The position numbers and the translations under genes are program-made. A stretch of DNA of 64,000 bases from Antedon bifida (Eukaryota; Echinodermata; Crinoidea; Comatulida; Antedonidae). The stretch covers positions 2,420,501-2,484,500 of the forward strand of contig OY727099.1 of the NCBI GenBank assembly GCA_963402885.1, given 5' to 3'. The notes under the pieces are model-generated. The model saw only the letters and a program-made list of their open reading frames with translations. It was not told the DNA's origin and ran no database searches. This document shows, in pieces, positions 27,368 to 63,565 of this stretch (the first letter of the stretch is position 1; each line of letters begins with the position of its first letter).

Positions 27368-28819
27368 CGTACTAGAAAACTAGTCAAAGTGACCCATCTT
27401 TAGTTTTGTCCATTCTTTTTTATTACCTGGAGAATAAAAAAATAGATGATGTATTACCTTTTATTTGCAATTTAAAAATTTGGGAAATATACCTGATGTA
27501 CGATGACATTTTGTGGATTTCATGACCATGAAAAAAACATAATGAGGAAGTTGAAACAATTAACAAAGCTATTGAACAGTAAAAGCTGAAGCGAAAAGGA
27601 TGTCTATGGCCTCAGTATTGCAGGGATGTACAGAATTTATACTTTGAACCATTTTCTAAATCCTTATCAAATATCACTATATTTGTATTAATTATCTATG
27701 ATAAACATTATCAAGTCAAACTGTGAATTACAAGCTAACACAATGCTGCCGATAAACTATTTTATAGTTAAATATTTGGTCAAAGGATTTATTACACTTT
27801 CTCTACAAATAAACCTCATCCACTGAGCTTCAGTTTGTATTGATGAGGGGGTTTGGTGAGATATTTGCAACTGGCTTGTTCTGGGGTGTGTATATCGTGC
27901 AGGATCCCTGCATGGTTTTTATGACTTTGTATAAAGCTAGGCCTACAGAGTGCCTGCTATGTGGCGACTAACTAGGCAGGATTTCCAGGCTATCCTCCTG
28001 ACCTTGACCACCACTCCATGGTCCCACTGATGGGCTAACTTAATAACTAAGCACATAAGCCTTTTGTTAGTATGTTAGATCTTACAGTCTAACAAGGTTT
28101 CCAATTAGGATAAGTCTATTATAACTGTATAAACATAATTGCTAATATAGAAGTATTACTATGCGTTTTCAGACAGTTTGGAAGATTTGACACATCATCA
28201 ATGCACACCGAAACGTGTTTTTTTCTTTGGTATAATGTAAACATTCAAGACAAAAAGGATAAATGTCATGCTTGACTGACCTCAGCGTTGGGCGCCGCGC
28301 GCGGCTGAAATTTAATAATAATATACGAAACTGCTTTTCAAAAAGCACTTAATTAAAACCCTTCCCTTTTAGTGTACGATTAAGATTGAACAGAATGAAA
28401 ATCATAAAACAAGATCTTTTAAAACATGGATTGGTTTTTTATTTATTTTTTTACGTCAAAAAGTCGAGTGGCCTTTTTTGATTGGTAAGAAATATTATGA
28501 TTATTGTACAAGAAAGTTTTAAATATGACAAGGCCACCCAAAAGGCCAACAGAAATATTTAAAAGAAATTGTTTACTTTTATGATAACTGTATCCTCCTA
28601 TGGAAACACATTTTTGTGTCAAAAAGTTGAAAGATAAGCGGTTGACAAATAAAAAAAATGGGTTATATTACTTTAAAAATATATAGATAGACTAAATAAA
28701 TTGTCGTCACTAAAGTAAACATGAGTAAAATGAATAATTCCTCATGATATAAGCCTTCCAATCCTGCTACTGCAGTCTTTCAGTTTCAATTTTCAGCTGT
28801 TGTCCTATTGAAAACGTGT
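27368..28819. other. divergent intergenic region, SLC45A3-like side
   Basis: This should contain the transporter 5' UTR and promoter, but I cannot place a TATA box or start site. A short GC-rich patch (GGGCGCCGCGCGCGG) lies at about 28289-28304 in otherwise AT-rich DNA. Confidence 0.35.
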
Positions 28820-45041: not shown

Positions 45042-46069
45042 GTGTATTATGGTTTTAACTGTTTTTTAACGACTTTCCGTAACAATTCTCGCAGAACCTC
45101 TTCCTTCCTTTGAATGCTGTCATTATTATAGTATAGTATTTTTATTATATAAAGCATAGTCGTTCAGGTTAAAGTTAACTGTCAGCGTTAATCTTCAACT
45201 TGCATACCACGTCTCTGTGTCTTTATCATCATCATTTAATAACCTTTCTTCCTCCTCCTTCTGTTATTAATAATTTTTCATTCATGTATTGTAGTGGAAA
45301 CCAAAAACAAATACTGTAGTTTATTTAACATTTTTTATTATTAATGCACTTGTTGAAAAAAAACCAAAAACACAACTATTAGGATAAGCACGTCCAGATA
45401 ATAACTTACAATTTACAAATTTATATATATATATAACTTTATACTTTATCGTTTCGATCTGGCTTTTCACTTTTTTTTTTGTATCTCCATTGAGATCCAG
45501 CCACTGATACCCACAGCATAAGCGAAAGGCTAAATCAAAATGATAAAGTAAAACAGCCAGAAAAGTTAGCAGAGCTTTCGGGCAACACTAGCCCTTCATC
45601 AGTGTATATATATATACTGTATATTTATATATTGCCATATTTTATTATATTTACAAACTATATATTTTTACTAAAAATAGCATTATAATTTCATAAGATT
45701 AAAAACGTATTGAAACTGTGTTAGTTTCGGTTGATAACAGCTACCATGAAAAACATTTCCTCAAACTCTGTATATTTGTAGTTTGAATAGATTTTTGTTT
45801 CTTCAATATGTGCTTTGGCCTGATATGCTAAATTACTGATGGCATCATTGTGTCTATATTATTTTTGTGAGCTTGTGCTTTAAAAAAATAAAAAATAATT
45901 ATTTTATGACATGAACCTACATATAAATGGTATTATGCTATATAAAATGATTGGTTGAATTTGGTTTCTATATTTTTCAAACGATACAATATTGTGTTGT
46001 GTCCTCTCTGTGAAACAATGTTCTTTTTTTTACTGTAAGTTTTCGAAAAAAAAGTGGTTTAGTTCCTGA
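45042..46069. other. spacer between GCC1 and the Ig-receptor cluster
   Basis: The part after about 45280 (GTAGTGGAAACCAAAAACAA onwards) resembles the 3' flanks of the receptor genes at 49.0, 53.5 and 56.2 kb, so it belongs to the cluster's repeating unit. A Penelope-like fragment sits inside at 45.45-45.60 kb. No other gene is seen. Confidence 0.45.
45448..45603 (-). repeat. Penelope-like terminal repeat with hammerhead-like core, copy 2
   Basis: On the minus strand the end reads CTGATGA, then a GGGC/GCCC hairpin, then GAAA and the short AGC-TCT-GCT hairpin before A. This order matches a hammerhead ribozyme core with the minimal stem III known in Penelope-like elements. Stem I is not paired in this copy, and one extra A sits at the base of stem II, so activity is doubtful. 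The rest matches the 40.7-kb copy, with one half inverted. Confidence 0.4.
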
Positions 46070-47377
46070 TTATTTCTCCAATGTAAAATAATGATGTGGT
46101 ACTGTAGCATCTGTTTGGCTAACTTCTTCTTCTCTGCGGTTATTGTCTTCATCTGTGTTCTGATCTCTACTGTAGATGTAGTTAGCCTCAGCACTCATTG
46201 CTGTATCTTTAATTGTGTGGTACACTCCATCATCAGCATGTACTGTAGGTGGAACGTTAGTAGTACTGACAGAATTCATAGTGGTGCTGTTTCTCTGATT
46301 ATTTCCAGCAGGTTGTGGAGTTGAGCCAGATTTTCTCTTGAGTAGGTAGATGAGAATGAACACCACTATCAACAGAATCATTGTAGCTGATGCCAGGATT
46401 ATGGTTAGTTTGTTTGCACTCTCCTGAGCAGCTGCATTAGTTGGCATATTTTGGCATTGATTAGTTGCATTAGTAGGCATACTGTCTTTCACTGTAAATT
46501 CTATCTCATCAGAGCTGCTTTGAGCAATACTTGTCACCAGACACTTTACAATGTAATCACCAGCTGTTAAATTGTTGAAGCATCTTTCATTGTCATCATT
46601 ACCATGATAACTATTCAAACCGTTTAATATCCAAGTATAATGTTTCTCACCAGATCCTTTTGTAGTCCCACACTTAAAGCAATGTCCATGCATTGTCTTT
46701 ATTTTCACTCTTAATTGACTAGGGTAAACTTTTAAAAGTAATGTATAGCACCGATGGTTTTCAATTTTCAATTTGGTAACACAGTAAAAGAATATACCAT
46801 CTCCCTGTTCATACCCTTTAAATGTCTGATTAAAAGGCAATGTCCTTGTGTTCCTATTTAAATTATACGACTTTGTAATGTTATTTTTCCCTTGGATCCA
46901 TCCAATTGTCATTTGATAATTTTTGTTTGGTTTTGTTTTCCGTTTCACCATACATTTGATTGTTACTTCCTCACCTTTGATGATGTACTCTACTAAATCT
47001 TTACAGACAATTCTCCAATTAGGATCTTGTGTATCTTTTCTTGTTACATGTGAAGGAATCAGAAAGTATTGATGATCATCATCTTGGCAGGTGTAAATTC
47101 CAGCATCTTGTTGTACATTGAAAGAGATGAACAGTTCACATGTTACTTTTAACTTTAACAGAGAGTTTTGTTTTAAAACATTGTTGCCAACACTATATGT
47201 ACTAGACACATTATACTCTTTACTTGAAGGTATGATGTTCACAGGTTGTATCCCATTTTCATTGAAATAATACTGTGAATCAAACTCAACGTCCAGTTCT
47301 TCTGCTGTAGCATCTCTGACAAACAGCAAACTGACAAACACCATTAGACACAGCATCATTTTTGTTGAATTTTTCAA
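46070..47377 (-). CDS. three-Ig single-pass receptor, paralog 1 (intact; mosaic type)
   Basis: One uninterrupted frame of 435 aa. A signal peptide ends near residue 25. The first Ig-like module (about 28-108) keeps D-A-G-I-Y-T-C at the F strand (C97) but has its other cysteine at C80, in the E-strand position. The second module (about 125-217) has C142, W160 and C199 plus C125 and C210. The third (about 221-297) has C236, W249 and C279 plus C233 and C266. The stalk is NAT-rich, the membrane span is about 324-346, and a KRK stop follows. Tail tyrosines: YHTI (386), NYIYS (400, 402) and YFTL (430). The ectodomain resembles paralogs 4 and 7 but the tail resembles 3, 5 and 6, so this is a recombinant. 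The likely role, cell-surface recognition with SH2-type signalling, is inferred. I do not recognise a named family. Confidence 0.85.
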   Translation of the reverse strand: MKNSTKMMLCLMVFVSLLFVRDATAEELDVEFDSQYYFNENGIQPVNIIPSSKEYNVSSTYSVGNNVLKQNSLLKLKVTCELFISFNVQQDAGIYTCQDDDHQYFLIPSHVTRKDTQDPNWRIVCKDLVEYIIKGEEVTIKCMVKRKTKPNKNYQMTIGWIQGKNNITKSYNLNRNTRTLPFNQTFKGYEQGDGIFFYCVTKLKIENHRCYTLLLKVYPSQLRVKIKTMHGHCFKCGTTKGSGEKHYTWILNGLNSYHGNDDNERCFNNLTAGDYIVKCLVTSIAQSSSDEIEFTVKDSMPTNATNQCQNMPTNAAAQESANKLTIILASATMILLIVVFILIYLLKRKSGSTPQPAGNNQRNSTTMNSVSTTNVPPTVHADDGVYHTIKDTAMSAEANYIYSRDQNTDEDNNRREEEVSQTDATVPHHYFTLEK

Positions 47378-48479
47378 ATTTAATGAATTTGATTCAACTT
47401 CTTGTTTGATAACTTGGACTGAGTAAACAGATTCCTATTTCAGATGTATGTATTTCTGCTATGGTGAAACCAAACTAAATGTCTAGTTTTTTCAAAGAAA
47501 ATAAAACCTAAAATTTACTTTGTTTTGCTGCCATCATTTGTGTAGTTATATTTATAATAAAAACATAATTTTACTTTCTATTCTTTAAGTAAACTTAACA
47601 TGATTTCAACAATAACATTCAACTTTCAGTATGAAATATCTATAAGCAATGAGACGCCATTTTAATTGCACTATTTTTAATGTGGGAAAATATTTTCATG
47701 AAATTATAATTAGCATAGTTTTAATTAACCAATCACAATTATATGGTTTTGAAAAAGGGATGGATCTTAAAAGCTAATAATTTGACGACTCAATATGATT
47801 AATTAGGCCATTGAATTCATGACGATATAAATCATTATGTTCTTTCTATTTAATATCAAGTTCCAGAAGTTATTTTTAAATACATTTAAACACAAATGTT
47901 GCTAACTGTTTTAACTGTATCAGCAAATTATTTAATATCTCTTTTTGCAAATGATTTATTCTAACACTTGTTAATGTTAATTAATTGTATTTACATTTCA
48001 AATATATATAAACACTACCACTTTATGTATTTTAATAAAGTTAAATGTGTTTCAATTAAAGTTCATGATATTTTTTTAAAGCCAACACATATCTTATATA
48101 AATGATATACTATGTACACTATAGTTGTAATATTTTTCATTTGTGGTTTCTGTGAAACAATGTTCTTTAAATCAACGTAGTACATTGAAAGATCTTAGAA
48201 AGATAGGGAAGGGAAGAAAGGAAGAAGAAAAGAGAGAAAGAAAAGTGAAAGGAGAAGTAAGGGGGAAAAAAAAAAGTAATAATGATAATAATAATAATAA
48301 TTAAAAATAAATAAGGGAGTCAGTTTCTCTCTGTAAAAGAATAACTAAATAGAATAATAATACACAACCAAATACAGTAGAGCTAGCAAAACAGAGTTGG
48401 AGGAGCAGAGTCTTCACATATGAAGTTGGCTCCAAATACGAAGAAGAAGAGATATAAAGTTATTTAGTTTATTACTTGA
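47378..48479. other. intergenic unit of the Ig cluster (5' flank of paralog 1)
   Basis: It matches the flanks at 50990-51830 and 58125-58960 over most of its length (for example CCAATCACAATTATATGGTT, AAGTTCCAGAAGTTATTTTT). A ~250-bp insertion at about 48206-48450 starts with a purine-only tract (GGGAAGGGAAGAAAGGAAGA) and is absent from the other two copies. Confidence 0.6.
47549..47556 (-). promoter_or_regulatory. TATA box of paralog 1
   Basis: TATAAATA on the minus strand, 172 bp before the ATG, inside flanking sequence conserved in the whole cluster. This suggests a start site near 47520 with a leader of about 140 nt. Confidence 0.45.
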
Positions 48480-48839
48480 TTAATTTCTGGTGACTTCTTC
48501 TCTGTTAGTTTCTTCATATGTATGTTTATTGTCATTCTCACTATTTCGTGTCGTATCATCAATTGTGTCATACACCTCACCATCACTCATTGCATGTGGA
48601 ACATTAGCAGTGTATAAGCTATTATAATGAGCAGTTATTGTATTACTAGTTCCATCAGGTTGTGAAGTGTTGTTGCCACACTTTTTCTTTAATAGGAAAA
48701 TGAGAATAAACACCACTATCAACAGAATGACTGTGGTTGATGTATATATTATTGTTATTATTATGCTTACGTTATTGAAATTAGCAGTTGCATCACTTAG
48801 CGTAGGCATACTGCCATCTCTATCCAATGTTTGCCTCAC
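48480..48839 (-). pseudogene. Ig receptor fragment, paralog 2 (membrane span and tail only)
   Basis: A 119-codon frame. From SMPTLSDATAN onward it is nearly identical to the stalk, membrane span and type II tail of paralog 7 (YNSL, YDTI, YEET tyrosines). The nine or so codons before that are not receptor sequence: at about 48812 the homology switches to text that elsewhere lies about 440 bp upstream of a receptor gene (CTCTATCCAATG). Signal peptide, all Ig modules and promoter are missing, so one deletion explains it. Confidence 0.8.
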
Positions 48840-49735
48840 ACATTTTTATAACTTTTGTGTGTTGATTGATTGATTTTTTGATGTCATCAATCTATATCCT
48901 ACGAGGTCTGCCCCTTCTTCTTTTACCTTATATTATTATTATATTCTAATGTAACCAATCAAATATCAATATCATACTTTTTTTCTTGCTGCAGCAATCA
49001 TTGTAGTGGAATCCAAAATAATCAAGCACAAACAAAATGTTTTAGTTAATATTGTATTTAATATTAATGCAAATTCGCTTTTTGTAAGCCTATTTAAACA
49101 GAATATTATCCAAAAACCCAACTATTAGGATAAGCACTTCCAGGTAATAACTTAGTGGATTAAACAAATATAGGGCACACTTACATATAAAAAAAAAGAA
49201 GTTAACATATGCACAAAGAAAGTGTTAGTTAGATATTAACAAACTGATATATATTTGCTATATTTTGTTATATTTACAAACTATATAGTTTTACTAAAAA
49301 CTATAATATGTATTCAAATAGCATTATAATTTCATAAGATGAAAAACGTATTGAAACTGTGTGTTAGTTTTGGTTGCTAACAGCTATCATGAAAAAATCC
49401 CCATTTTATTTATTTTCTTACAAGTTTAAATCTTTACTTTGCTTACTAATACTTTGTACAGTGCTAAACATTTCCTCAAACTCTGTATATTTGTAGTTTG
49501 AATAGATTGTTGTTTCTTCAATCGGTGCTTATGGCCTGATGCTAAAATTCTGATCAGGCATCATCTTAAAAAAGTCTTTTATGATATGAATCTACATGCA
49601 AATGATATTCTATATAAAATTATTGGGTGAGTTTGGTTTAAATATTTTTCAAACAATGCAACACTGTGATATGTGTCCTCTCTATGAAACAAGGTTCCTT
49701 TTTACTGTGAGTTTCTGAAAAAAGTTGTTGTTTGA
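48840..49735. other. intergenic unit of the Ig cluster (3' flank of paralog 3)
   Basis: Shared with the spacers at 53.4-54.2 and 56.0-56.9 kb: GAGGTCTGCC, TTCTTTTACCTT, TATTATTATTATA, AGCACAAACAAAATGTTTTA. No other gene is seen. Confidence 0.6.
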
Positions 49736-50989
49736 TTATGACTCCAATGTAAAATAATGATGTGGTACTTTAGAATCTTTTTGGCTAGCTTCTTCTTCTC
49801 TGCTGTTATTGTCTGCATCTGTGTTCTGATCTCCACTGTAGACATAGTTAGTCTCAGCACTCGTTTCTGTATCTTTAATTGTGTAGTACACTCCATCATC
49901 AGCATGTATTGTAGGTGGAACATTAGTAGTACTGACGGAATTCACAGTGGGGCTGTTTCTCTGATTACTTCCAGCAAGTTGTAGAGTTGTGCTAGATTTT
50001 CTCTTTAGTAGGTAGATGAGAATGACCACCACTATTAAAAGAATCATTGTTGCTGATGCCAGGATTATAGTTAGTTTGTTTGCACTCTCCTGATTAGTTG
50101 CATTAGTTGGCATACTGTCTTTCACTGTAAATTCTATCTCAGCAGAGCTGCTTTGAGCAGTAGTTGTCACCAGACACTTTACAAGGTAATCACCAGCTGT
50201 TAAATTGTTGAAGCATCTTTCATTGTCATGATAATCATTCATGTTTTGTCCATTTAACATCCAAGTATAGTGTTTATCACCAGATCCATCTGTAGCCTGA
50301 CACTTAAAGCAACATTCATGCAGTTTATATATTTTGACTGTTAATTGAGGGTAAACTTTTAAAAGCAATGTATAGCAGATTGAAAATTGTATATCAATTC
50401 TAGAAATACAATAAAAGAATATACCATCTCCCCATTGATAACCTTTAAAGGTCTGATTAAAACTTACTGTCTGCGTGTCCTTACTTAACTGATATGACTC
50501 TGTAATGTTATACATTCCTTGGATCCATCCAATTGTCATTTGATAATTGTACCATTTTATTATTTGTTTCACCTTACATTTGATTGTTAGTTCTTCACCT
50601 TCTATGATGTACTTTATTAAGTCCTCACAGGCAATTCTCCAATCAATATATTCAATCTGAATTATGTTGACGTTACCTAAAGGAATCAGATAGTATTGAT
50701 GATCATCATCTTGGCAGGTGTATATTCCAGAATTTTGTTGTACATTGAAGGAGATGAACAGATCACATTTAACTTTTGTCAACTTTGATGAGTATTGTTG
50801 GAAGTTACTGTTGTCAACACTATATGCACCATATATTGAAACATTATACTCTTTACTTGACGGTATGATCTTCACAGGTTGCATCCCATATTTGTTGGAA
50901 TAATACTGTGAATCAAACTCAACGTTCTGTTCTTCTGCTGTAACAGCTCTGACAGACAGCAAACTGATCATCATCATTAGACAGAACAT
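49736..50989 (-). CDS. three-Ig single-pass receptor, paralog 3 (intact)
   Basis: A single 417-aa frame with a signal peptide (MFCLMMMISLLSVRAVTA), the cluster's three Ig-like modules and ten or more conserved cysteines. Its ectodomain is the second type: PLGNVN linker, Y-N-Y-Q-M in module 2, RIDIQFSIC before the last strand, and QLTVKIYKLHECC opening module 3. The membrane span is near residues 306-330. The tail carries YYTI, NYVYS and C-terminal YFTL. Codons for the first ~33 residues are identical to paralog 6, after which the first module diverges sharply. Predicted type I plasma-membrane glycoprotein; ligand unknown. Confidence 0.85.
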   Translation of the reverse strand: MFCLMMMISLLSVRAVTAEEQNVEFDSQYYSNKYGMQPVKIIPSSKEYNVSIYGAYSVDNSNFQQYSSKLTKVKCDLFISFNVQQNSGIYTCQDDDHQYYLIPLGNVNIIQIEYIDWRIACEDLIKYIIEGEELTIKCKVKQIIKWYNYQMTIGWIQGMYNITESYQLSKDTQTVSFNQTFKGYQWGDGIFFYCISRIDIQFSICYTLLLKVYPQLTVKIYKLHECCFKCQATDGSGDKHYTWMLNGQNMNDYHDNERCFNNLTAGDYLVKCLVTTTAQSSSAEIEFTVKDSMPTNATNQESANKLTIILASATMILLIVVVILIYLLKRKSSTTLQLAGSNQRNSPTVNSVSTTNVPPTIHADDGVYYTIKDTETSAETNYVYSGDQNTDADNNSREEEASQKDSKVPHHYFTLES

Positions 50990-51830
50990 AATTTTTGTTT
51001 AAGTTTAATGAATTGGATTCAACTTCTTGGTTTAATAACTTTGTCTGAGTAAAACAGATTCCTATTTCAAATTTATGTATTTCTGCTATGGTGAAACCAA
51101 ACTAAATGTCTAGTTTTCCAAAGGAAATAAAAACCTAGAATTTACTTCTTTTTTTGCTGCCGTCATTTGTGTAGTTGATATATTTATATTAAAAATATAA
51201 TTTTACTTTCTATTCTTTAAGTAAACTTAACATGATTTTATCAATAACATTCAACTTTCAGTATGACATATCTATAAGCAATTTTAATTGCACTATTTTT
51301 AATGTGGGAAAATATTTTCATGAAATTATAAGAAGCATAGTTTTTATTAACCAATCACAATTATATGGTTTTGAAAAATTGATGGATCTTAAAAACTAAT
51401 AATTTAGACTCAATATGATAGAACAAGTTATTATAGACCATTGAATTCATAACGATATAAGTCATTATGTTCTTTCTATTTAATATAAAGTTCCAGAAGT
51501 TATTTTTAAACACAAATGTTGCTAACTATTTTAACTGTATCAGTAAATTATTTAATATCTCTTTTTGCAAATGATTTTACACAAATTCTAACATTTTTTA
51601 ATGTATTGTATTTACATTTCAAATATATATAAAAAGTACCTCTATATGTATTTTAACACATATATTTATTTTCAACACATATCGTATATATTATAAATGA
51701 TATACTATATGAGGTACACTACAGTTGTAATATTTTTCATTTGCGGTTTCTGTGTAACAATGTTCTTTAACTCAACGTAGTACATTGAAAGATATCAGAA
51801 AGATATAAAGTTATTTAGTTTATTACTTGA
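50990..51830. other. intergenic unit of the Ig cluster, near-identical to 58125-58960
   Basis: By eye I count about three substitutions and one 5-bp indel against the other copy over ~840 bp, so the two were homogenised or duplicated very recently. It contains the promoter of paralog 3 and the 3' flank of paralog 4. Confidence 0.75.
51181..51188 (-). promoter_or_regulatory. TATA box of paralog 3
   Basis: TATAAATA on the minus strand, 192 bp before the ATG, in the conserved block with GTAGTTGATA and CGTCATTTGTG just downstream. Confidence 0.45.
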
Positions 51831-53019
51831 TTAATTTCTGGTGACTTCTTCTCTGTTAGTTTCTTCATATGTATGTTCATTGTCATTCTCACTATTTCGT
51901 GTCGTATCATCAATTGTGTCATACACCTCACCATCACTCATTGCATGTGGAACATTAGCAGTGTATAAGCTATTATAATGAGCAGTTATTGTATTACTAG
52001 TTCCATCAGGTTGTGAAGTGTTGTTGCCACACTTTTTCTTTAATAGATAAATGAGAATAAACAGCACTATCAACAGAATGACTGTGGTTGATGTATATAT
52101 TATTGTTATTAGCAGTTGCATCACTTAGCGTAGGCATACTGTCTTTCACTGTAAATTCTATCTCATCAGAGCTGCTTTGAGCAGTAGTTGTCACCAGACA
52201 CTTTACAACGTAATCACCAGCTGTTAAGTTGGTGAAGCATCTTTCATTGCCTTGATAATTATTTAAGTTTTGTCCATTTAATATCCAAGTATAGTGTTTC
52301 TCACCAGATCCACACATAGCCTCACATTTAAAGCAGTGTCCATGCATTGTCTTTATTTTCACTCTTAATTGACTAGGGTAAACTTTTAAAAGTAATGTAT
52401 AGCACCGATGGTTTTCAATTTTCAATTCGGTAACACAGTAAAAGAATATACCATCTCCCCGTTCATACCCTTTAAATGTCTGATTAAAAGGCAATGCCCT
52501 TGTGTTCCTATATAAATTATACGACTTTTTAATGGTATTTTTCCCTTGGATCCATCCAATTGTCATTTGATAATTTTTGTTTGGTTTTGTTATCCGTTTC
52601 ACTTTACATTTGATTGTTACCTGTTCACCTTCTATGATGTACTCTTCTAAGTCTTCACAGGCAATTCTCCAGTTAGTATCTTGCATATCCTTTCTTGTGA
52701 CAAGGGAAGGAATCAGAAAATACTGCTTATCATCACCTTGGCAGGTGTAAATTCCAGTATCTTGTGCATTGAAGGAGATGAACAGTTCACATTTAACATT
52801 TGTCAACTTTGATGAGTATTGTTGGAAGTTTTTGTAGCCAAGACTATATTCACTATATAATAATGAAACATTATACTCTTTACTTGACGGTATGATCTTC
52901 ACAGGTTGCATCCCATTTTTGTTGGAATAATACAGTGAATCAAACTCAACGTCCTGTTCTTCTGCTGTAACATCTCTGACAAATAGCAAACTTACAAACA
53001 CCATTAAACACAGTATCAT
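51831..53019 (-). pseudogene. Ig receptor, paralog 4 (23-bp deletion before the membrane span)
   Basis: The first 300 or so codons encode signal peptide and three Ig-like modules of the first ectodomain type (KPNKNY, TELKIENHRC, CFKCEAMCGSGEKH). Compared with paralog 7, 23 bases are missing at 52110/52111, in the stalk. The frame then shifts and ends after 34 different residues at 52006, while the original membrane span and type II tail continue in another frame down to 51831. As it stands it would encode a 337-aa protein without a membrane anchor, either a pseudogene or a secreted form. The extra Cys in CEAMC is shared with paralog 7. Confidence 0.85.
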
Positions 53020-54222
53020 TTTTGTTTAGGTTTAATTAATTGGTTTAAACCTCTTGGTTCTTTGATAACTTGGTCTGAGTAAACAGATTCCTATATTCAA
53101 CTTTATGTATTTCTGCTAATAATGGTGAAACCAAACTAAATGTCCAGTAAAGTTTTCCAAAGGAAATAAAAACCTACAATTTACTTTGTTTTACTGCCGT
53201 CATGTGTGTAGTTAAATTCTTATATTAATATTAAAAATATAATAATTACTTTCTATTCCTAATGTAAACTTAATTTGATTATGTTTGTAACTTTTGAGTA
53301 TAAAATTAAAATGCATATTACAAGCAATGAAATACACGCCATCATAATTACACTCCATCATGTTACAACGGGAAAAGAATTTTTACATGAAAGGTCTGCC
53401 CTTTCTTCTTTTACCTTCTATTATTATTATCATTATCATCATCATTATCATCATCATTACTATATTCTGATGTAACCAATCAAATATCAGTATCATACTT
53501 TTTTTCTTGCTGCAGCAAAGGCATGAAGTGACAGATTGTAGTGGAATTCAAAATAATCAAGCACAAACAAAATATTTTAGTTAACATTGTATTTTAATGT
53601 AAATGCAAATTTGCTTTTTGTAAGACTATTTAAACAGAATATTATCTGAAAACCCAACTATTAGGATAAGCACTTCCAGGTAATAACTTAGTAGATTTAT
53701 TTTTAAAAAACAAGTTAATTTATTGCCATATTTTGTTATACTTACAAACTACCGGTATATATTTTGTCTATAAACTATAATATGTATCCAAATAGCATTA
53801 TAATTTCATAAGATGAAAAACGTATTGAAACTGTGTTAGTCTCAGTTGCTAACAGCTACCATGAAAAAACACCTTTTTTGACACGTTTCAATTCATGGTT
53901 ACTTTGCTTACTAATACTTTGTTCAGTGCTAAACATTTCCTCAAACTACTCTGTATTTGTAGTTTGAATATATTTTTGTTTCTTCAATCTGTGCTTCGGC
54001 CTGATATGCTAAATTGCTGATGGCATCATTGTGTCTATATTATTTTTGTGAGCTTGTGCTTTAACGAAATACGAAATTATTCGTTTATGATATGAACCTA
54101 CATAAAAATGATTGGTTGGGTTTGGTTTTAATATTTTTATGCAATGCAATATTGAGATGTGTCCTCTCTGTGAAACAATATCCTTTTTTTTTACTGTGAG
54201 TTTCCAAAAAAGATGTTCCTGA
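53020..54222. other. intergenic unit of the Ig cluster
   Basis: It holds the paralog 4 promoter region, an (ATC/ATT)n microsatellite at about 53418-53463, and the paralog 5 3' flank. The paralog 4 TATA is changed: CTTATA on the plus strand at 53219-53224 gives TATAAG. Confidence 0.55.
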
Positions 54223-55512
54223 TTATTTCTCTAATGTAAAATAATGATGTGGTACTTTAGCAACTTCTTCTATGCTGTTATTGTCTGTATCTGTGTTCTG
54301 ATCTCTATTGTTGTTGGTCTCAGCACTCATTGCTGTATCTTTATTTGTGTAGTACACTCCATCATCAGCATGTATTGTAGGTGGAACGTTAGTAGTACTG
54401 ACGGAATTCACAGTGGTGCTGTTTCTCTGATTACTTCCAGCAGATTGTGGAAGATTGCCAGATTTTCTCTTGAGTAGGTAAATGAGAATAACCACCACTA
54501 TTACAAGAATCATTGTCGCTGATGCCAGGATTATGGTTAGTTTGTTTGCAGTCTCCTGATTAGATGCATTAGTTGGCATACTTTCGCACTGATTACTTGC
54601 ATTAGTTGGCATACTGTCTTTCACTGTAAATTCTATCTCATCAGAGCTGCTTTGAGCAGTAGTTGTCACCAGACACTTTACAACGTAATCACCAGCTGTT
54701 AAGTTGGTGAAGCATCTTAGACTTTCATTGCCACGATAATTATTTAAGGTTTGTCCATTTAACATCCAAGTATAGTGTTTCTCACCAGATCCATCTGTAG
54801 CCTCACATTTAAAGCAACGTTCATGCAGTTTATATATTTTGACTGTTAATTGAGGGTAAACTTTTAAAAGCAATGTATAGCAGATTGAAAATTGTATATC
54901 AATTCCAGAAATACAATAAAAGAATACACCATATCCCCATTGATAACATTTAAAGGTCTGATTAAAATTTACTGTCTCTGTGTCCTTATTTAACTGATAC
55001 AACTCTGTAATGTAATATTTACCTTGGATCCATCCAATTGTCATTTGATAATTGTTGTACTGTTTTCTAATTTGTTTCACCTTGCATCTGATTGTTATCT
55101 CTTCGCCTTCTATGATGTACTTTATTAAGTCCTCACAGGCAATTCTCCAATCAATAGATCTGATCTGAAATTTGTCGTTGACGTTGACGTTACCTAAAGG
55201 AATCAGAAAATACTGATTATCATAATCTTGGCAGGTGTGTATTCCAGCATTTTGTTGTAAATTGAAAGAGATAAACAGTTCGCATTTGACTTTTGTCAAC
55301 TTTGATGAGTATTGTTGGAAGTTATTGTAGCCAACATTATATGAACCATATAATGAAACATTATACTCTTTACTTGACGGTATGATCTTCACAGGTTGCA
55401 TCCCATTTTTGTTGGAATGATACATTGAATCAAACTCAACGTCCTGTTCTTCTGCTGTAACATCTCTGACAAACAGCAAACTGATAAACACTATTAAACA
55501 CAACATCATCAT
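54223..55512 (-). CDS. three-Ig single-pass receptor, paralog 5 (intact; altered tail)
   Basis: A 429-aa single frame: signal peptide (cleavage near residue 20), first Ig-like module with C77 and C94 (the F-strand Y is H92), a longer VNDKFQIRSI linker, second module with C143, W161 and C200, third with C236, W249 and C280. The stalk has a duplicated SMPTNASNQ, the membrane span is about 324-347, and the second ectodomain type is used. Oddities: an extra Cys in module 2 (TFKCY where others have TFKGY); the first tail motif is YYTN instead of YYTI; NYIYS has become NNNRD; only YFTL (424-427) remains of the usual set. This may be a receptor with weakened or changed signalling. Confidence 0.85.
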   Translation of the reverse strand: MMMLCLIVFISLLFVRDVTAEEQDVEFDSMYHSNKNGMQPVKIIPSSKEYNVSLYGSYNVGYNNFQQYSSKLTKVKCELFISFNLQQNAGIHTCQDYDNQYFLIPLGNVNVNDKFQIRSIDWRIACEDLIKYIIEGEEITIRCKVKQIRKQYNNYQMTIGWIQGKYYITELYQLNKDTETVNFNQTFKCYQWGYGVFFYCISGIDIQFSICYTLLLKVYPQLTVKIYKLHERCFKCEATDGSGEKHYTWMLNGQTLNNYRGNESLRCFTNLTAGDYVVKCLVTTTAQSSSDEIEFTVKDSMPTNASNQCESMPTNASNQETANKLTIILASATMILVIVVVILIYLLKRKSGNLPQSAGSNQRNSTTVNSVSTTNVPPTIHADDGVYYTNKDTAMSAETNNNRDQNTDTDNNSIEEVAKVPHHYFTLEK

Positions 55513-55670
55513 TTTTGTTTTAAGAAACTTCTTGGTTCTTTGATAACTTGGTGTGAGTAAACAGATTCCTATTTCAACTGTATTTCTGCTATGGTTAGAC
55601 CAAACTAAACATTGTGCAATAAGGAAATAAAAACCTAAAATGTCCTTTTTTAGTTGCCATCACGTGTACT

Positions 55671-55678
55671 TATTTATA
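55671..55678 (-). promoter_or_regulatory. TATA box of paralog 5
   Basis: TATAAATA on the minus strand, 159 bp before the ATG, in the conserved flank. Confidence 0.45.
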
Positions 55679-56054
55679 TTAAAAATAAAACTTTACTTTC
55701 TATTCCCAAAGTAAACTTAAAATACTTTTGTTTATGACTCTGTAACTTTTAACTTTTGAGATTAAAATACATATCCAAGCTTGAAATATATGCCATCATA
55801 ATTGCACACGATATTGTGACTTAATTATTTTGGGGAAAAAGTATTTCCAAGAAATAAATATAAGCAAACTATTAAATAATCATAATTGATCATAATGTCT
55901 ATCTATATTTGGTTTTGGTTTCATCTTCACATTGAAGGTTGGAGGTCATGCTTTAACAGCCGTCTCTATCCAATTTTCATAACTTTTTGTGTTTATCCAT
56001 TCTTTGTTGTCATCAATCCATTTTCAAAGAGGTCTGCCTCTTCCTCTTTTACCT

Positions 56055-56108
56055 TCTATTATTATTATTATCGTCATCGTCATTATCATCATTATCATCA
56101 TCATTATT

Positions 56109-56149
<41 letters not shown>

Positions 56150-56185
56150 TATCATCATCATCAATATTATCATCATCATTATTAT
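56055..56185 (+). repeat. (ATC/ATT)n microsatellite
   Basis: An almost pure ATC trinucleotide run with ATT interruptions. The same site in the spacers at 48.9 and 53.4 kb has only a short run, so the tract expanded in this copy. Confidence 0.95.
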
Positions 56186-56896
56186 ATTCTAATGTAACCA
56201 ATCAATATCATACTTTTTTTCTTCCTGCAGCAGATTATAGTGGAATCCAAAATAATCAAGCACAAACAAAATGTTTTAGTTAACATTGTATTTTAATGTT
56301 AATGCAAATTCACTTTTTGTAAGACTATTTAAACAGAATATTATCAGAAATAATAAGGTAATAACTTAGTGGATTAAACAAACACTTAAATATTTAAAAA
56401 AAACAAGTTAAAATATGCACAAAGAAAGTGTAAGTTAGATATTTATAAATTGATATATATTGCCATATTTTATTTTATTTGCAAACTATATATTTTGTCT
56501 ATAAACTATAATATGTAATATGTAATAGCATTATAATTTTACAAGAATAAAAACAACTACCATGAAAAAACACCTTTTTTGACACGTTTCAATGCATTGT
56601 ACAGTTTTAAACATTTCCTCAAACTCTGTACATTTGTAGTTGGAGTTTTTGTTTCTTCAATCTGTGCTTATGTTCTGATATGCTAAATTACTGTCTATAT
56701 TTTTTTATGAGCTTGTGCTGTAACAAAATACAAAATTATTCTTTTATATGAATCTACATATAAATGATATGGTATTTAAAATGATTGGTTGAGTTTGGTT
56801 TTGATATTTTCAAAATGATGCAATATTGTGATGTGTCCCCTCTGTGAAACAATGTCCTTTTTTTCACCTGTGAGTTTCCAAAAAAAAAGTTCCTGA

Positions 56897-58124
56897 TTAT
56901 TTCTCCAACGTAAAATAATGATGTTGTACGTTAGAATCTTTTCTGCTAACTTCTTCTCTGCTGTTGTTGTCTGCATCTGTGTTCTGATCTCTACTGTAGA
57001 TATAGTTAGCCTCAGCACTCGTTGCTGTATCTTTAATTGTGTAGTACACTCTATCATCAGCATGTACTGTAGGTGGAACGTTAGTAGTACTGACGGAATT
57101 CATAGTGGTGCTGTTTCTCAGATTACTTCCAGCAGGTTGTGGAGTTGTGCCAGATTTTTGCTTTAGTAAGTAAATGAGAATGAACACCACTATTAACAGA
57201 ATGACTATAGTTGATATCAGTGTTATTGTTAGGATGTTGGCACTCTCCTTGGCATCTTTCACTGTAAATTCTATCTCATCAGAGCTGCTTTGAACAGTAG
57301 TTGTCACCAGACACTTTACAACGTAATCTCCAGCTGTTAAGTTGGTGAAGCATCTTAGACTTTCATTGCCATTTAAGTTTTGTCCATTTAACATCCAAGT
57401 ATAATGTTTCTCACCAGATCCATCTGTAGCCTGACATTTAAAGCAATGTTCATGCAGTTTATATATTTTGACTGTTAATTGAGGATAAACTTTTAAAAGC
57501 AATGTATAGCAGTACGGGTATGAAAATTCCAGAAATACAATAAAAGAATATACCATCTCCCCATTGATAACCTCTAAAGGTCTGATTAAAACTTACTGTC
57601 TGTGTGTCCATATTTAACTGGTATGACTGGGTAATGTTATACATTCCTTGGATCCATCCAATTGTCATTTGATAATTGTTGTACCATGTTCTTATCTGTT
57701 TCACCTTACATTTGATTGTTAGTTCTTCACCTTCTATGATGTAGTTTAGTAAGTCCTCACAGGCAATTCTCCAATCAATATATTCAATCTTAATCTTGTT
57801 GACGTTACCTAAAGGAATCAGATAGTATTGATCATCTTCATCTTGGCAGGTGTATATTCCAGAATTTTGTTGTCCATTGAAAGAGATGAACAGTTCACAT
57901 TTAACTCTTGTCAACTTTGATGAGTATAGTTTGAAGTTATTGTTGCCAACATTATATGAACCATATAATAATGAAACATTATACTCTTTACTTGACGGTA
58001 TGATCTTCACAGGTTGTATCCCATTTTCATTTGAATAATACTGTGAATCAAACTCAACGTTCTGTTCTTCTGCTGTAACAGCTCTGACAGACAGCAAACT
58101 GATCATCATCATTAGACAGAACAT
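56897..58124 (-). pseudogene. Ig receptor, paralog 6 (frameshift in second Ig module)
   Basis: The 5' frame (58124 to 57459) encodes the signal peptide and modules 1-2 of the second ectodomain type, ending out of frame after YCISGIF. The 3' frame (to 56897) encodes the end of module 2, module 3, membrane span and type I tail (YYTI, NYIYS, YFTL). Against paralog 3 the text between GGAATT and TGCTATAC has 13 bases instead of 18, around 57511-57524, a net loss of five. The stalk is short (VKDAKESAN). A single event separates it from an intact gene, so it may be a recent null or a sequencing error. Confidence 0.8.
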
Positions 58125-58960
58125 AATTTTTGTTTAAGTTTAATGAATTGGATTCAACTTCTTGGTTTAATAACTTTGTCTGAGTAAAACAGATTGCTAT
58201 TTCAAATTTATGTATTTCTGCTATGGTGAAACCAAACTAAATGTCTAGTTTTCCAAAGGAAATAAAAACCTAGAATTTACTTTTTTTTTTGCTGCCGTCA
58301 TTTGTGTAGTTGATATATTTATATTAAAAATATAATTTTACTTTCTATTCTTTAAGTAAACTTAACATGATTTTATCAATAACATTCAACTTTCAGTATG
58401 ACATATCTATAAGCAATTTTAATTGCACTATTTTTAATGTGGGAAAATATTTTCATGAAATTATAAGAAGCATAGTTTTTATTAACCAATCACAATTATA
58501 TGGTTTTGAAAAATTGATGGATCTTAACAACTAATAATTTAGACTCAATATGATAGAACAAGTTATTATAGACCATTGAATTCATAACGATATAAGTCAT
58601 TATGTTCTTTCTATTTAATATAAAGTTCCAGAAGTTATTTTTAAACACAAATGTTGCTAACTATTTTAACTGTATCAGTAAATTATTTAATATCTCTTTT
58701 TGCAAATGATTTTACACAAATTCTAACATTTTTTAATGTATTGTATTTACATTTCAAATATATATAAAAAGTACCTCTATATGTATTTTAACACATATAT
58801 TTATTTTCAACACATATCGTATATAAATGATATACTATATGAGGTACACTACAGTTGTAATATTTTTCATTTGCGGTTTCTGTGTAACAATGTTCTTTAA
58901 CTCAACGTAGTACATTGAAAGATATCAGAAAGATATAAAGTTATTTAGTTTATTACTTGA
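58125..58960. other. intergenic unit of the Ig cluster, near-identical to 50990-51830
   Basis: Contains the promoter of paralog 6 and the 3' flank of paralog 7. The near-identical tract extends past both ends into coding DNA (58033 to 59805). Confidence 0.75.
58316..58323 (-). promoter_or_regulatory. TATA box of paralog 6
   Basis: TATAAATA on the minus strand, 192 bp before the ATG, same context as paralog 3. Confidence 0.45.
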
Positions 58961-60172
58961 TTAATTTCTGGTGACTTCTTCTCTGTTAGTTTCTTCATAT
59001 GTATGTTCATTGTCATTCTCACTATTTCGTGTCGTATCATCAATTGTGTCATACACCTCACCATCACTCATTGCATGTGGAACATTAGCAGTGTATAAGC
59101 TATTATAATGAGCAGTTATTGTATTACTAGTTCCATCAGGTTGTGAAGTGTTGTTGCCACACTTTTTCTTTAATAGATAAATGAGAATAAACAGCACTAT
59201 CAACAGAATGACTGTGGTTGATGTATATATTATTGTTATTATTATGCTTACGTTATTGAAATTAGCAGTTGCATCACTTAGCGTAGGCATACTGTCTTTC
59301 ACTGTAAATTCTATCTCATCAGAGCTGCTTTGAGCAGTAGTTGTCACCAGACACTTTACAACGTAATCACCAGCTGTTAAGTTGGTGAAGCATCTTTCAT
59401 TGCCTTGATAATTATTTAAGTTTTGTCCATTTAATATCCAAGTATAGTGTTTCTCACCAGATCCACACATAGCCTCACATTTAAAGCAGTGTCCATGCAT
59501 TGTCTTTATTTTCACTCTTAATTGACTAGGGTAAACTTTTAAAAGTAATGTATAGCACCGATGGTTTTCAATTTTCAATTCGGTAACACAGTAAAAGAAT
59601 ATACCATCTCCCCGTTCATACCCTTTAAATGTCTGATTAAAAGGCAATGCCCTTGTGTTCCTATATAAAGTATACGACTTTTTAATGGTATTTTTCCCTT
59701 GGATCCATCCAATTGTCATTTGATAATTTTTGTTTGGTTTTGTTATCCGTTTCACTTTACATTTGATTGTTACCTGTTCACCTTCTATGATGTACTCTTC
59801 TAAGTTCTCACAGGCAATTCTCCAATTAGGATCTTTCATATCCTTTCTTGTGACAAGGGAAGGAATCAGAAAATACTGATTATCATCATCTTGGCAGGTG
59901 TAAATTCCAGTATCTTGTGCATTGAAGGAGATGAACAGTTCACATTTAACTTTTGCCAACTTTGATGAAAAGAATTGTTGGAAGTCATTGTTGCCAATAC
60001 TATATGAACCATATAATGAAACATTATACTCTTTACTTGATTGTATGATGTTCACAGGTTGCATCCCATTTCCGTTGAAATAATACTGTGAATCAAACTC
60101 AACGTCCTGTTCTTCTCCCATAACATCTCTGACAAACAGCAAACTGATAAACACCAGTAGACACAGCATCAT
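58961..60172 (-). CDS. three-Ig single-pass receptor, paralog 7 (intact; short tail type)
   Basis: A 403-aa single frame. Signal peptide MMLCLLVFISLLFVRDVMG; first Ig-like module with C77 and C93 (D-T-G-I-Y-T-C); second with C138, W156 and C195, plus C121 and C206; third with C232, W245 and C274, plus C229, C236 and C261. Membrane span about 309-334, then KKK. The type II tail has Y356 (YNSL), Y374 (YDTI) and Y392 (YEET). YNSL and YDTI lie 14 residues apart, looser than a standard ITAM. From the start of module 2 to the stop it is almost identical to paralog 4, while module 1 differs at many residues. It is first in the direction of transcription. Predicted type I membrane glycoprotein; ligand unknown. 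Confidence 0.85.
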   Translation of the reverse strand: MMLCLLVFISLLFVRDVMGEEQDVEFDSQYYFNGNGMQPVNIIQSSKEYNVSLYGSYSIGNNDFQQFFSSKLAKVKCELFISFNAQDTGIYTCQDDDNQYFLIPSLVTRKDMKDPNWRIACENLEEYIIEGEQVTIKCKVKRITKPNKNYQMTIGWIQGKNTIKKSYTLYRNTRALPFNQTFKGYERGDGIFFYCVTELKIENHRCYTLLLKVYPSQLRVKIKTMHGHCFKCEAMCGSGEKHYTWILNGQNLNNYQGNERCFTNLTAGDYVVKCLVTTTAQSSSDEIEFTVKDSMPTLSDATANFNNVSIIITIIYTSTTVILLIVLFILIYLLKKKCGNNTSQPDGTSNTITAHYNSLYTANVPHAMSDGEVYDTIDDTTRNSENDNEHTYEETNREEVTRN

Positions 60173-60324
60173 TTTTCTTTAGGTTTAATTAATTGTTTTA
60201 AACCTCTTGGTTGTTTGATAAAACTTGGTCTGAGTAAACAGATTCCTATTTCAACTGTATAATTGTTTTGCAATAAGGAAATAAAAACCTAAAATATCCT
60301 TTTTCCATTGCCATCATGTGTAGT

Positions 60325-60332: not shown

Positions 60333-61180
60333 TTAAAAATAAAACTTTACTTTCTATTCCCAAAGTAAACTTAATATACTTTTATTTATGACTCGTTCTG
60401 TAACTTTCAACTTTTGAAATTAAAATACATATCCAAGCTTGAAAATATATGCCGTCATAATTGCACTCGATATTGTGACATTAATTATGTCGGGGAAAAG
60501 GTATTTCCATGAAATTAAAAGCAAACTATTAAATAATCATAATTGATCATAATGTATATATATTTGGTTCCATCTTCACGTTGAAGGTTGGAGGTCATGC
60601 TTCACCAGCCGTCTCTATCCAATGCTTGCCTGACACATTTTTTTAAAACTTTTGGTGTTAATCCATTCCTTCCTCTTTTACCTTCTACAGTATTATTAAA
60701 TTCCAACCAATGAAATATCAATGTCACATTTTTGTTTTGTTTGAAGTGACAGACTTTTTACATGATGTATCATTATAAGCTGATAGATAGCTTTATGATA
60801 AAGCAGTAGGCAAATGCAATCACAGTGATAAAATTGTTGTGATGTAACAATTTTTAATGATTCCTAATGACACTATTCAAACACAAAAATTACAATTATT
60901 TTGTAATACAAATGTATCGACAAATTTATTTAATATCTTTCTAAAAATGATAATATACAAATTCTATGTACTATATTACATTAGTAAATACTCTATTTAC
61001 ATTTCAAAAATATTTAAACTTTTACAGATTAAAGCATATGACAAATTATTATATATAATTAAAATTCTTGGTGAATTCCATGTTGAAACAAACTTTTCAG
61101 TTTGTGCTCTTCTCAATTTGCAAATACCTCATTCAAATAGTTTTGTAGGGTTTATGAAAGTTAAAACATTGTTATACATG
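60333..61180. other. end of the Ig cluster and spacer
   Basis: Receptor-type upstream flank continues to about 60740 (CGTCTCTATCCAATGC, CTTCCTCTTTTACC). After that, AT-rich DNA without a recognised gene. The 115-codon frame at 60857-61204 is AT-rich and not convincing. Confidence 0.45.
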
Positions 61181-61402: not shown

Positions 61403-63565
61403 TCATGAATGCAAAGGTTTCACCCTTGCAAAACGAGAGAGTCCAAGACGTCGAGGTTGACTCGGAGAAATCAGTTTAACACCGCCTAAAGGATTCTCTC
61501 CACCTTTAAAGATAAAAACACATGGCATAAATTAATTTTACAATGCAAAATCAAAAGTGTAAACACCACAGTCCCGATTGAATACATTGTGTTGTGTTTG
61601 TATTGCCCTAACGCATAATTGTGTAATTTTTTTTTCTTATATTTTTATATTATTACTACTATTTGTTTCTTATTTACTTATATTTATGCATTGTATGTAT
61701 TGTTTATTATTATTTGATACAATCATTATTAGTAGTTATTTTAAAGCTCTCTTGAACTTATATGGTCTTTTCCAGGCTTTGTTCTTTTTATTTGAATTCC
61801 CATTTTTATTCTACGGAAGTAATTAACTTTATTAAAACTAGAAAATAATTAAACCTATTCAAAGTAATATTTAATTAATCTTCATTTTTCATGTTTTTTG
61901 GGGGGACAAAAAAAAAAGTGGAAAAAACAGCTGAACCCATACCAGGAGACATGACTATAGGCTTCCTAACGATCTCTTTTGGTGTGCAGTATGTAGAGGT
62001 TTTTGAAACACCACTTCTATTAGCTGGTGGTGTGAATCCTCTGCCTATTGTCTTTGTTGGAATCATGGCAGCACTTTTATTTGGCAATGAAGCTGTCGGA
62101 ACTCTGCTAACTGAAGTAATTTTACAAGGAGGTGATGCTTTAGTTTTTTTGGCAGCTTTCCCTATATATTAAAATCAAAAATATTATTAAATTTGATGAA
62201 TCTGTCAACAAATACATATGTAAACTAAAACACAAATTTGTCTGATCTCTACAGTAATTTTTCTTAACATGAACCGATATCCATTTGTTTTACTATTGAG
62301 GAAACTTGTTTAATCGTTAGTCCTCGCAATTTTTTTACCAACGTCTTCAAAAGCTTAAAAACAGGAAAGAAAGTTGTTCAACCGGTAAAAACAAAACAAA
62401 CCTGTCGTTGGCTTGGATTTCTTGGTAGTATTTTTTTCCTTATTTGCTACAATCTTCTTTTTAGGTTCCTTTGGCATCTTCGTTTTTGGTTTGGATACTT
62501 CATAATCACTTTCATCATCACCATCATCAGAGAAGTCACCATCGCTTCCGTTATCAACATCACCTAATAAAAATGTTTATTTTGTTTAATAATTAGGGAT
62601 AATTTTACACTACAATTGCGGTCATTTTTATACCTCATGTGTATGCATGCATGTAGTGTAATAGCAAAGATGTGTACAGAAAACAAACGTACAAATGCTC
62701 TCTCTTACAATATAGATTCTGCAGTGTTAACACCAATTATTACCCTTAAAGCGTGGTTCCCCCCTAGACCGACGTATCGAAGCAAAGTTCTGTACTTCGT
62801 AATCACATGGAACCAATGACGCGAAAGTGCTGCAAACATCGCTACGGTAAATCAAATCAGTTTGATTTCATGCAACGATGCAAGGCAAGAACACTAGAAA
62901 ACACAATAGTACAGTGCGTAGCCAAGTGCGCTGGATGAACTTGCTGGATTATACAGGGGCTATTTTGTGAACCAGTTCACCGGGGTAACCCCTACTCTTC
63001 TCGAATAATGAACTGGGTTATTTAAAGTGCACACAGGTTATAACTGTGTACACTGGACCTACGGTTTATAGCCCTTAACTGAAAAGACTTGTTCCACCAC
63101 CAGAACTAGGAGCGAGTCGGCTTTGAACCCTTGCCGATGTTGCTGGTCCTTTAGGTACGTTAAACGGGGCCCCTGCCTTAACCCCTCGGCCATTTGACTC
63201 TCCATTTGAACCAGGTCGAGTCTACAGCAACTAACGTTGGCACGCAATAATCAGGTTTTATTTCATGCAGACGGGGACAAACACTTTGGAATCATATGTA
63301 AACAAAGATGATTTAAACTAACCAACATGGAAATCATCATCACTATCATCTTCTTGATTCTCTGCTAATGATTTCCTTGAAGCTGAAGCCCTTCTTGATG
63401 GTTTGCCGCCCTCTCTGACATCTTCTTCCAATATCTCAATACTGGGTTCATGGGTAGCAACACAGTTCTGATTAAGTTGAGGAGGCTGTATGGATGTTAG
63501 TAAAGAATGCGGAGCTGCAACAACTGGTGAGAGATTTGCTTTTGATGGTTGTAAATTACTTTCAT
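61403..63565 (-). CDS. RAD51AP1: RAD51-associated protein 1, last four exons (5' part outside window)
   Basis: Exons 63323-63565, 62402-62563, 61943-62161 and 61403-61503 on the minus strand. All introns are phase 1 and all joins keep frame, giving 241 codons plus stop. The C-terminus RRLGLSRFARVKPLHS matches the RAD51-binding motif of RAD51AP1 almost residue for residue. Before it come acidic stretches (EDDSDDDFHVGDVDNGSDGD), a lysine-rich patch (KEPKKKIVANKEKNTTKKSK) and a GRGFTPPANRSG segment like the W/F-x-P-P-A DNA-binding region. The family binds DNA and RAD51 and stimulates strand pairing in homologous recombination, in the nucleus. No start codon is visible. Introns carry SINE and MITE copies. 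Confidence 0.88.
62745..62900 (+). mobile_element. MITE family D copy in RAD51AP1 intron
   Basis: Starts AAAGCGTGGTTCCCCCCTAG, contains ACCAATGACGCG and ends CAAGGCAAGAACACTAG. Related to the units at 18.0 and 39.6 kb. Confidence 0.5.
62945..63205 (-). repeat. SINE family 1, copy 5 (near full length)
   Basis: On the minus strand: GGCCGAGGGGTTAAGGCAGG (A box), GGGTTCAAAGCCGACTC (B box), then the body to CCGGTGAAC. It retains a recognisable Leu/Ser-type tRNA head and lies in the RAD51AP1 intron between the two acidic exons. Confidence 0.75.

Follow-up and report, generated by a model that had tools for sequence, protein, structure and literature searches.

Apparent re-pairing of upstream regions, ectodomains and tails in a tandem family of receptor-like genes of the crinoid Antedon bifida

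We analysed 64,000 nucleotides (nt) of contig OY727099.1 of the crinoid Antedon bifida (assembly GCA_963402885.1, forward strand, positions 2,420,501 to 2,484,500; hereafter the window). Positions 46070-60172 of the window, which fill the interval between convergent golgin and RAD51AP1-like genes, hold seven related genes or gene remains, very probably a tandem family of receptor-like genes whose modules have been re-paired. As judged from the DNA, copies have been born, have died and have been homogenised, and the upstream region, the ectodomain class, and the tail class have been re-paired among them. A preliminary description of this DNA, made without database searches, had proposed a tandem family of receptors with three immunoglobulin (Ig)-like modules and tyrosine-bearing tails; module re-pairing and gene conversion are additions to that account.

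All seven copies lie on the minus strand, in the transcription order p7, p6, p5, p4, p3, p2, p1, and they are mostly about 60-90% alike. When five of the copies were compared with the window by tblastn, E values fell as low as 0.0 between copies and nothing beyond the array was better than 0.22, so the similarity is not due to chance. The coordinates and the tblastn matches agree with the seven same-strand loci of the preliminary description, and the copy-number turnover that it noted is present as well (four of seven copies are intact, two are frameshifted, and one is a fragment). The intact copies are uninterrupted open reading frames (ORFs) of 429 (p1, from its ATG), 417 (p3), 429 (p5), and 403 (p7) amino acids (aa). 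(The first ATG of p1 is at 47359; the start in the ORF list, 47377, is a TTG.) A signal peptide, an ectodomain of about 275 aa with three modules (D1, D2, and D3), a transmembrane (TM) segment, and a tyrosine-bearing tail can all be read within one ORF. Each of the four intact copies clearly shows the N-terminal hydrophobic segment and the single C-terminal TM segment that had been described. The family is probably lineage-specific, and its members read as type I membrane receptors that are each encoded by a single exon.

The copies fall into two classes of D2 (types I and II) and two classes of tail (A and B). The intact copy p7 (58961-60172) has a signal peptide, D1, a type-I D2, D3, a TM segment, and tail A, behind an upstream region like that of p5. 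The frameshifted p6 (56897-58124) has a type-II D2, tail B, and an upstream region like that of p1 and p3; it consists of two overlapping ORFs (57459-58124 and 56897-57556), with a single frame break near 57515. The intact p5 (54223-55512) is a chimera of a p7-like upstream region, a type-II ectodomain, and tail B, which reads YYTN at the site of YYTI in p3 and p6. In p4 (52006-53019), which has a p7-like three-module ectodomain, a 23-nt deletion directly ahead of the TM segment breaks the frame and leaves a 337-aa ORF with no TM segment; the TM segment and tail A remain out of frame (51831-52121). The intact p3 (49736-50989) has a type-II D2 and tail B, and the fragment p2 (48480-48812) retains only a stalk, the TM segment, and tail A. 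Finally, the intact p1 (46070-47359) is another chimera, with a p3/p6-like upstream region, a type-I ectodomain, and tail B. Among the six copies compared upstream of the ATG (p1 and p3 to p7), five have the splice-acceptor-like motif TTTACTCAG in the stretch 43-59 nt before it (at 55-59 nt in those five), and p5 has TTTACTCAC. Given this conserved motif, an intron in the 5' untranslated region is possible.

In D2, p1 is close to p7 (synonymous divergence, dS, of 0.125) and far from p3 (0.495) and p5 (0.497). In the TM segment and tail, p1 is far from p7 (dS of 0.701) and close to p3 (0.130) and p5 (0.143). The same holds by class. Type-I D2 (p1, p4, and p7, with dS of about 0.13 from p1 to p4 or p7) and type-II D2 (p3, p5, and p6) are separated by dS values of 0.35-0.50. 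Tail A is found in p7, p2, and, out of frame, p4, and tail B in p1, p3, p5, and p6; across the TM segment and tail, the dS of p1 with p3, p5, or p6 is 0.13-0.24, and p7 differs from the four tail-B copies by a non-synonymous divergence (dN) of 0.43-0.49 and a dS of 0.55-0.72. We also ran approximately unbiased (AU) tests with five copies and 15 topologies (the fragment p2, and p4, which has no in-frame tail, were excluded). On D2, all 12 topologies that do not pair p1 with p7 were rejected (at 8.4e-30 or below). On the tail, the three topologies that do pair them were rejected at 0.042, 0.003, and 0.0002; the first of these is barely significant, which counts against the re-pairing.

The upstream regions group in yet another way. 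At 100-400 nt upstream, p5 is 0.93 identical to p7 versus 0.68-0.70 to p1, p3, and p6, which form a group of their own (0.93-1.00); p4 stands apart (0.71-0.76 to the others). Only the three topologies that pair p5 with p7 exceed 0.0002 in the AU test of this region, and D2 rejects all three. (At 0-100 nt, the grouping is blurred near the start codon, with p5 and p7 at 0.79.) The 3' flank tracks the tail class, with identities of 0.91-1.00 among the A copies, 0.78-0.90 among the B copies, and 0.50-0.67 between them. Because distances and trees differ from module to module, we conclude that p1 and p5 are chimeras and that all three parts, the upstream region, the ectodomain, and the tail, have changed partners between copies. 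As in paired receptors, p1 and p7 have similar ectodomains with different tails.

The copies also appear to have been homogenised by gene conversion or a similar exchange. By BLAST, about 92% of positions agree between the p3-p4 segment and the p6-p7 segment (94% over aligned sites). The longest identical run between them covers 1118 aligned sites, indels aside (51394-52516 in the p4 region versus 58529-59669 in the p7 region), and none of 2000 shuffles matched it (the longest shuffled run was 202). It spans the later part of p4 and p7 and the non-coding DNA that follows. Because non-coding DNA is included, the run points to recent exchange rather than constraint. It could also be an assembly artefact, as it comes from one sequence only.

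A short common element recurs at the boundaries of the tandem segments, at 48.9, 53.4, 56.1, and 60.7 kb (all limits are approximate). Its copy at 48832-48951 has an ATT-rich remnant, the copy at 53393-53483 has a short ATC/GAT repeat, the copy at 55955-56205 has a long ATC/GAT repeat with 13 exact units running, and the right-edge copy at 60598-60705 has no repeat. ATC/GAT repeats are therefore present at two of the four sites, and exact runs of at least 4 units occur only at 56.1 kb within the window. Separately, a G+A-rich stretch at 48196-48280, in the 3' flank of the truncated p2, is the only one in the window to pass our purine criterion (60-nt windows with at least 93% purine or pyrimidine and at least 25% G or C).

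Another explanation is that the array is mostly decaying, with few or no copies expressed, and that the mosaic reflects neutral concerted evolution in a tandem repeat. Three of the seven copies are broken, non-coding DNA lies within the identical run, and the decay of CpG continues through the intergenic DNA, all of which would fit. We consider this improbable because four long ORFs are intact and because the mean pairwise dN/dS of the ectodomain, by Nei-Gojobori counts that are rough on recombining sequences, is 0.61 (codon bootstrap 0.45-0.85; for the four intact copies, 0.61, 0.44-0.81). The upper bound does exceed 1 for D1 (0.60, 0.34-1.05), D3 (0.63, 0.31-1.29), and the TM segment and tail (0.69, 0.43-1.06) when each is taken alone over all copies, but not for D2 (0.58, 0.35-0.90). 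(These estimates exclude p2 and, for the tail, p4.) The ratios indicate purifying selection overall, and as the ectodomain value is below 1, the array proteins are probably made and used. We also considered diversifying selection in D1, where 18 non-synonymous and 2 synonymous changes separate p4 from p7. We ruled this out: D1 lies outside the identical run, identity fades gradually 5'-ward, and the mean D1 ratio is 0.60.

The preliminary description read all three modules as Ig-like, and they fared differently. D2 is likely Ig-like: the four intact copies all have C138, W156, and C195 (numbered as in p7), which correspond to the B- and F-strand cysteines and the C-strand tryptophan and are located in predicted strands of a low-confidence AlphaFold model. 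In D3, C232, W245, and C274 are likewise invariant in all four. Of two copies of D3 compared with Pfam, p7 matched Y_Y_Y best, with PKD-like families below, and the matches of p3 included Ig_3 (E of 0.011). D3 may be an Ig- or PKD-like sandwich, and an Ig-like fold is plausible. For D1, an Ig-like fold is unproven. D1 does retain the Ig-like F-strand motif D/N-x-G-I-Y/H-T-C, and its profile meets the same motif in CEA (E of 0.0029 for the whole chain and 1.1 for the best 24-residue stretch alone).

Six of the seven array pieces matched Pfam Ig_3 below threshold (E of 3.5e-5 to 0.048), and none of 11 other ORFs in the window matched an Ig model (most of which are shorter; for 10 of them, the scan stopped at E of 0.1). 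By domain, Pfam Ig matches were found for D1 in none of three copies, for D2 in one of three, and for D3 in one of two. The preliminary description did not recognise the family, and no family can be assigned at the curated Pfam cut-off, which no array piece reached (the best Ig_3 score was 24.7 bits, for p4, versus 30). When PDB sequences were searched with profiles, the best E was 0.0029, and searches of PHROGs with p7 and p3 gave no match better than 0.04. Profile comparison gave no signal of homology among D1, D2, and D3, but with 3-5 near-identical rows it is powerless.

Several results weigh against three Ig domains. First, D1 has no B-strand cysteine and no tryptophan; it has only C77 and C93, 16 apart, on the apparent E and F strands. 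None of three copies of D1 tested matched any Pfam family at E of 1 or better. Second, some pieces have better sub-threshold matches than Ig_3, namely RIFIN (0.0018, p5) and New_glue (0.0013, C-terminal piece of p6), and the top PDB matches of the D3 profile are to norovirus VP1 (0.0065). Third, the structure predictions that had been suggested as a check gave mixed results. AlphaFold, with an alignment of the paralogs alone as input, reached a mean predicted local distance difference test (pLDDT) score of only 48.7 for full-length p7 and 58.6 for the p3 ectodomain, which makes the predicted fold tentative. In the p3 model, the strands predicted for D2 and D3 are consistent with a sandwich, with D3 blocks at pLDDT 66-85 and D1 below 50. 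The 50 best Foldseek rows include the Ig-superfamily receptors B7-H6, CD155, MAG, and CD22 alongside complement C3 and factor XIII (template modelling score on the query, TMq, of 0.24-0.38), and rows for the p7 model are mostly transglutaminase, C3, and RbmA.

The tyrosine motifs are similarly ambiguous. All six tails have the YxxI/L-type motifs of the preliminary description (two YxxI/L/V matches in p1, p2, p3, p6, and p7, and one in p5), but the counts are barely above chance (shuffle P of 0.031-0.323 per tail). Immunoreceptor-type signalling by these tails was not borne out: none of the six tails has a strict immunoreceptor tyrosine-based inhibition motif (ITIM), activation motif (ITAM), or hemi-ITAM (hemITAM). 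A VYxTI block common to both tail classes was ruled out as clustered conservation, as 7001 of 10000 shuffles were equally good (4855 by a looser count). The tail tyrosines may nonetheless be functionally relevant.

On balance, we favour a role for the array in recognition, in the manner of paired receptors, with some confidence. The lack of strict signalling motifs counts against this, and so do three other observations. The TM segments contain no charged residue for adaptor pairing. No domain has a mean dN/dS above 1, and arms-race selection is thus not indicated. Finally, the entire array is depleted in CpG (observed/expected of 0.22-0.37), like the golgin gene region. CpG depletion is linked with germline-methylated, broadly expressed DNA rather than with inducible immune genes. 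The observed/expected ratio is 0.30 for the array with its intergenic DNA (46000-60200), versus 0.70 for the sequence at 1-46 kb and about 1.0 at 1-22 kb; in 2-kb windows it is 0.65-1.35 at 1-22 kb and 0.22-0.60 at 30-62 kb. (We take this mosaic pattern to be that of an invertebrate with regional methylation.)

A second possibility is that these are non-immune surface proteins for adhesion, gamete recognition, or development, and that the tail tyrosines are YxxPhi endocytic signals. YDTI, YYTI, YHTI, YFTL, and YNSL all fit the YxxPhi rule, and the CpG depletion would suggest germline or broad expression. However, it is recognition receptors that more typically show turnover of copies and new pairings of tail and ectodomain, although reproductive proteins do likewise. 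We regard this as a minority prospect, if a serious one; immunity or self/non-self discrimination would be the likeliest setting, ahead of gamete or tissue adhesion.

Third, the array could consist of endogenised viral membrane glycoprotein genes (intronless and Ig-like) that were tandemly amplified. The uninterrupted ORFs would be expected, and a Foldseek comparison with viral models includes, among many Ig-like proteins of phages, herpesvirus glycoprotein C (TMq 0.46), but the query model is of low confidence. This seems very unlikely, as no relative was confirmed in viral contigs (175 pattern stretches) or, for p7, in phage records, none of the 11 other window ORFs scanned reached the cut-off of a viral family, and the CpG depletion resembles that of the neighbouring golgin region. 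No relative was confirmed in prokaryote genomes either (207 stretches). The prokaryote, viral, and phage collections are not expected to contain animal genes, and these searches carry little weight.

Recognition receptors in other animals offer closer comparisons. Among vertebrate paired Ig-like receptors, Siglec-11 and Siglec-16 have similar ectodomains with different signalling and are kept alike by gene conversion (PMC5701461); by title, KIR, LILR, CD300, and CEACAM also belong here. The array resembles these in the re-coupling of ectodomain and signalling and in conversion. It differs in being encoded by one uninterrupted ORF, in having no strict ITIM and an uncharged TM segment, and in that the upstream region is re-paired too. 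In particular, the hallmark of an ITIM in one member and a charged TM segment or ITAM in the other is absent (none of six tails, and uncharged TM segments). In the cnidarian Hydractinia, the Alr family also consists of clustered membrane proteins of the Ig superfamily with many probable pseudogenes (PMC11067881, PMC11999971). However, compared by description only, it comprises 41 or more loci with little identity to one another, versus seven copies mostly about 60-90% alike, and ITIM/ITAM-type motifs are reported for it (PMC12065747) that we did not find in the array tails.

In the tunicate Botryllus, fuhc-tm has three tandem Ig domains, a TM segment, and a short tail, and FcoR tails can bear the core Y-x-x-I/L/V motif (PMC12065747). 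But fuhc-tm is about 535 aa long, versus 403-429 aa for the array copies, and FcoR proteins (520-610 aa) are described with a V-Ig, a sushi, and two C2-Ig domains and an ITIM or hemITAM, with some loci alternatively spliced. The array does not have this architecture: its copies have three modules in 403-429 aa, and the only sushi match is sub-threshold (Sushi_2, 0.049). The oyster CgIgIT2 is a molluscan Ig receptor with a TM segment and a tyrosine tail, but it has five Ig domains and a classic ITAM (PMC11999971; the title of the paper cited there says inhibitory). Finally, in the sea urchin Sp185/333 clusters, GAT repeats bound the tandem segments, GA repeats lie where genes have putatively been deleted, and hybrid genes are predicted; by a section heading, the clusters lack pseudogenes (PMC5103432), versus three broken copies of seven here. 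The segment edges and the purine stretch of the array recall these clusters, by a post hoc comparison of few sites. Sp185/333 is a different protein family, and its members are secreted and not Ig proteins.

The genes on either side are readily recognised. The golgin gene lies on the plus strand and reaches about 43.6 kb, where it ends in a GRIP domain (43399-43584 as a stop-to-stop frame; Pfam E of 2.6e-16). The last exon of the RAD51AP1-like gene, with an inferred start, is at 61403-61504 on the minus strand, and the gene has a RAD51_interact match above the Pfam cut-off (E of 1.6e-13). As CpG is depleted on both sides, we asked whether the array lies in an intron of the latter gene; this is ruled out by the stop and last exon at 61403-61504, beyond the array. 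Elsewhere in the window, which is 33% GC, a minus-strand MFS transporter gene at 24987-27379 (the ORF at 26180-27367 matches MFS_1, E of 3.1e-13) is presumably SLC45-like by resemblance. Minisatellites lie at 23870-24441 (18 nt, which maintains long hexapeptide open frames), 31865-32734 (48 nt), and 43551-43903 (15 nt). Also present, in at least seven copies (7022, 10107, 11917, 14103, 18838, 37381, and 39476), is a dispersed element that measures up to about 160 nt and contains short internal repeats; it is probably a non-autonomous transposon.

If the array does serve recognition, D1 and D2 would bind a cell-surface or microbial ligand, and the two tail classes would send different signals via YxxI/L-type phosphotyrosine sites or AP-2-type sorting. 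Conversion and unequal exchange would diversify the family, and, as in the paired receptors of vertebrates, conversion would repeatedly couple similar binding faces to different tails and promoters. More tentatively, recognition receptors could be mixed and matched in the germline at this locus: as every receptor has a single coding exon, conversion and unequal exchange could freely re-pair the promoter, the binding face, and the signalling tail, without exon shuffling, and the ATC/GAT repeats at segment edges would favour exchange. Such a locus would yield new combinations of receptor, signal, and expression, and a loss of frame like that of p4 might yield soluble ectodomains.

Cnidarians, tunicates, and vertebrates have systems of similar kinds; in the literature searched, we did not meet the variant seen here, with one-exon coding and threefold re-pairing. 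(By titles and the starts of abstracts of the papers listed, with subscription papers mostly uncovered, we found no account of a single-exon, three-Ig tandem receptor family, which does not prove absence.) Because the neighbouring genes can be recognised, relatives and populations can be examined for this interval. One-exon Ig-like receptors with re-paired parts would be a compact example of how binding, signal, and expression can be altered independently in germline recognition.

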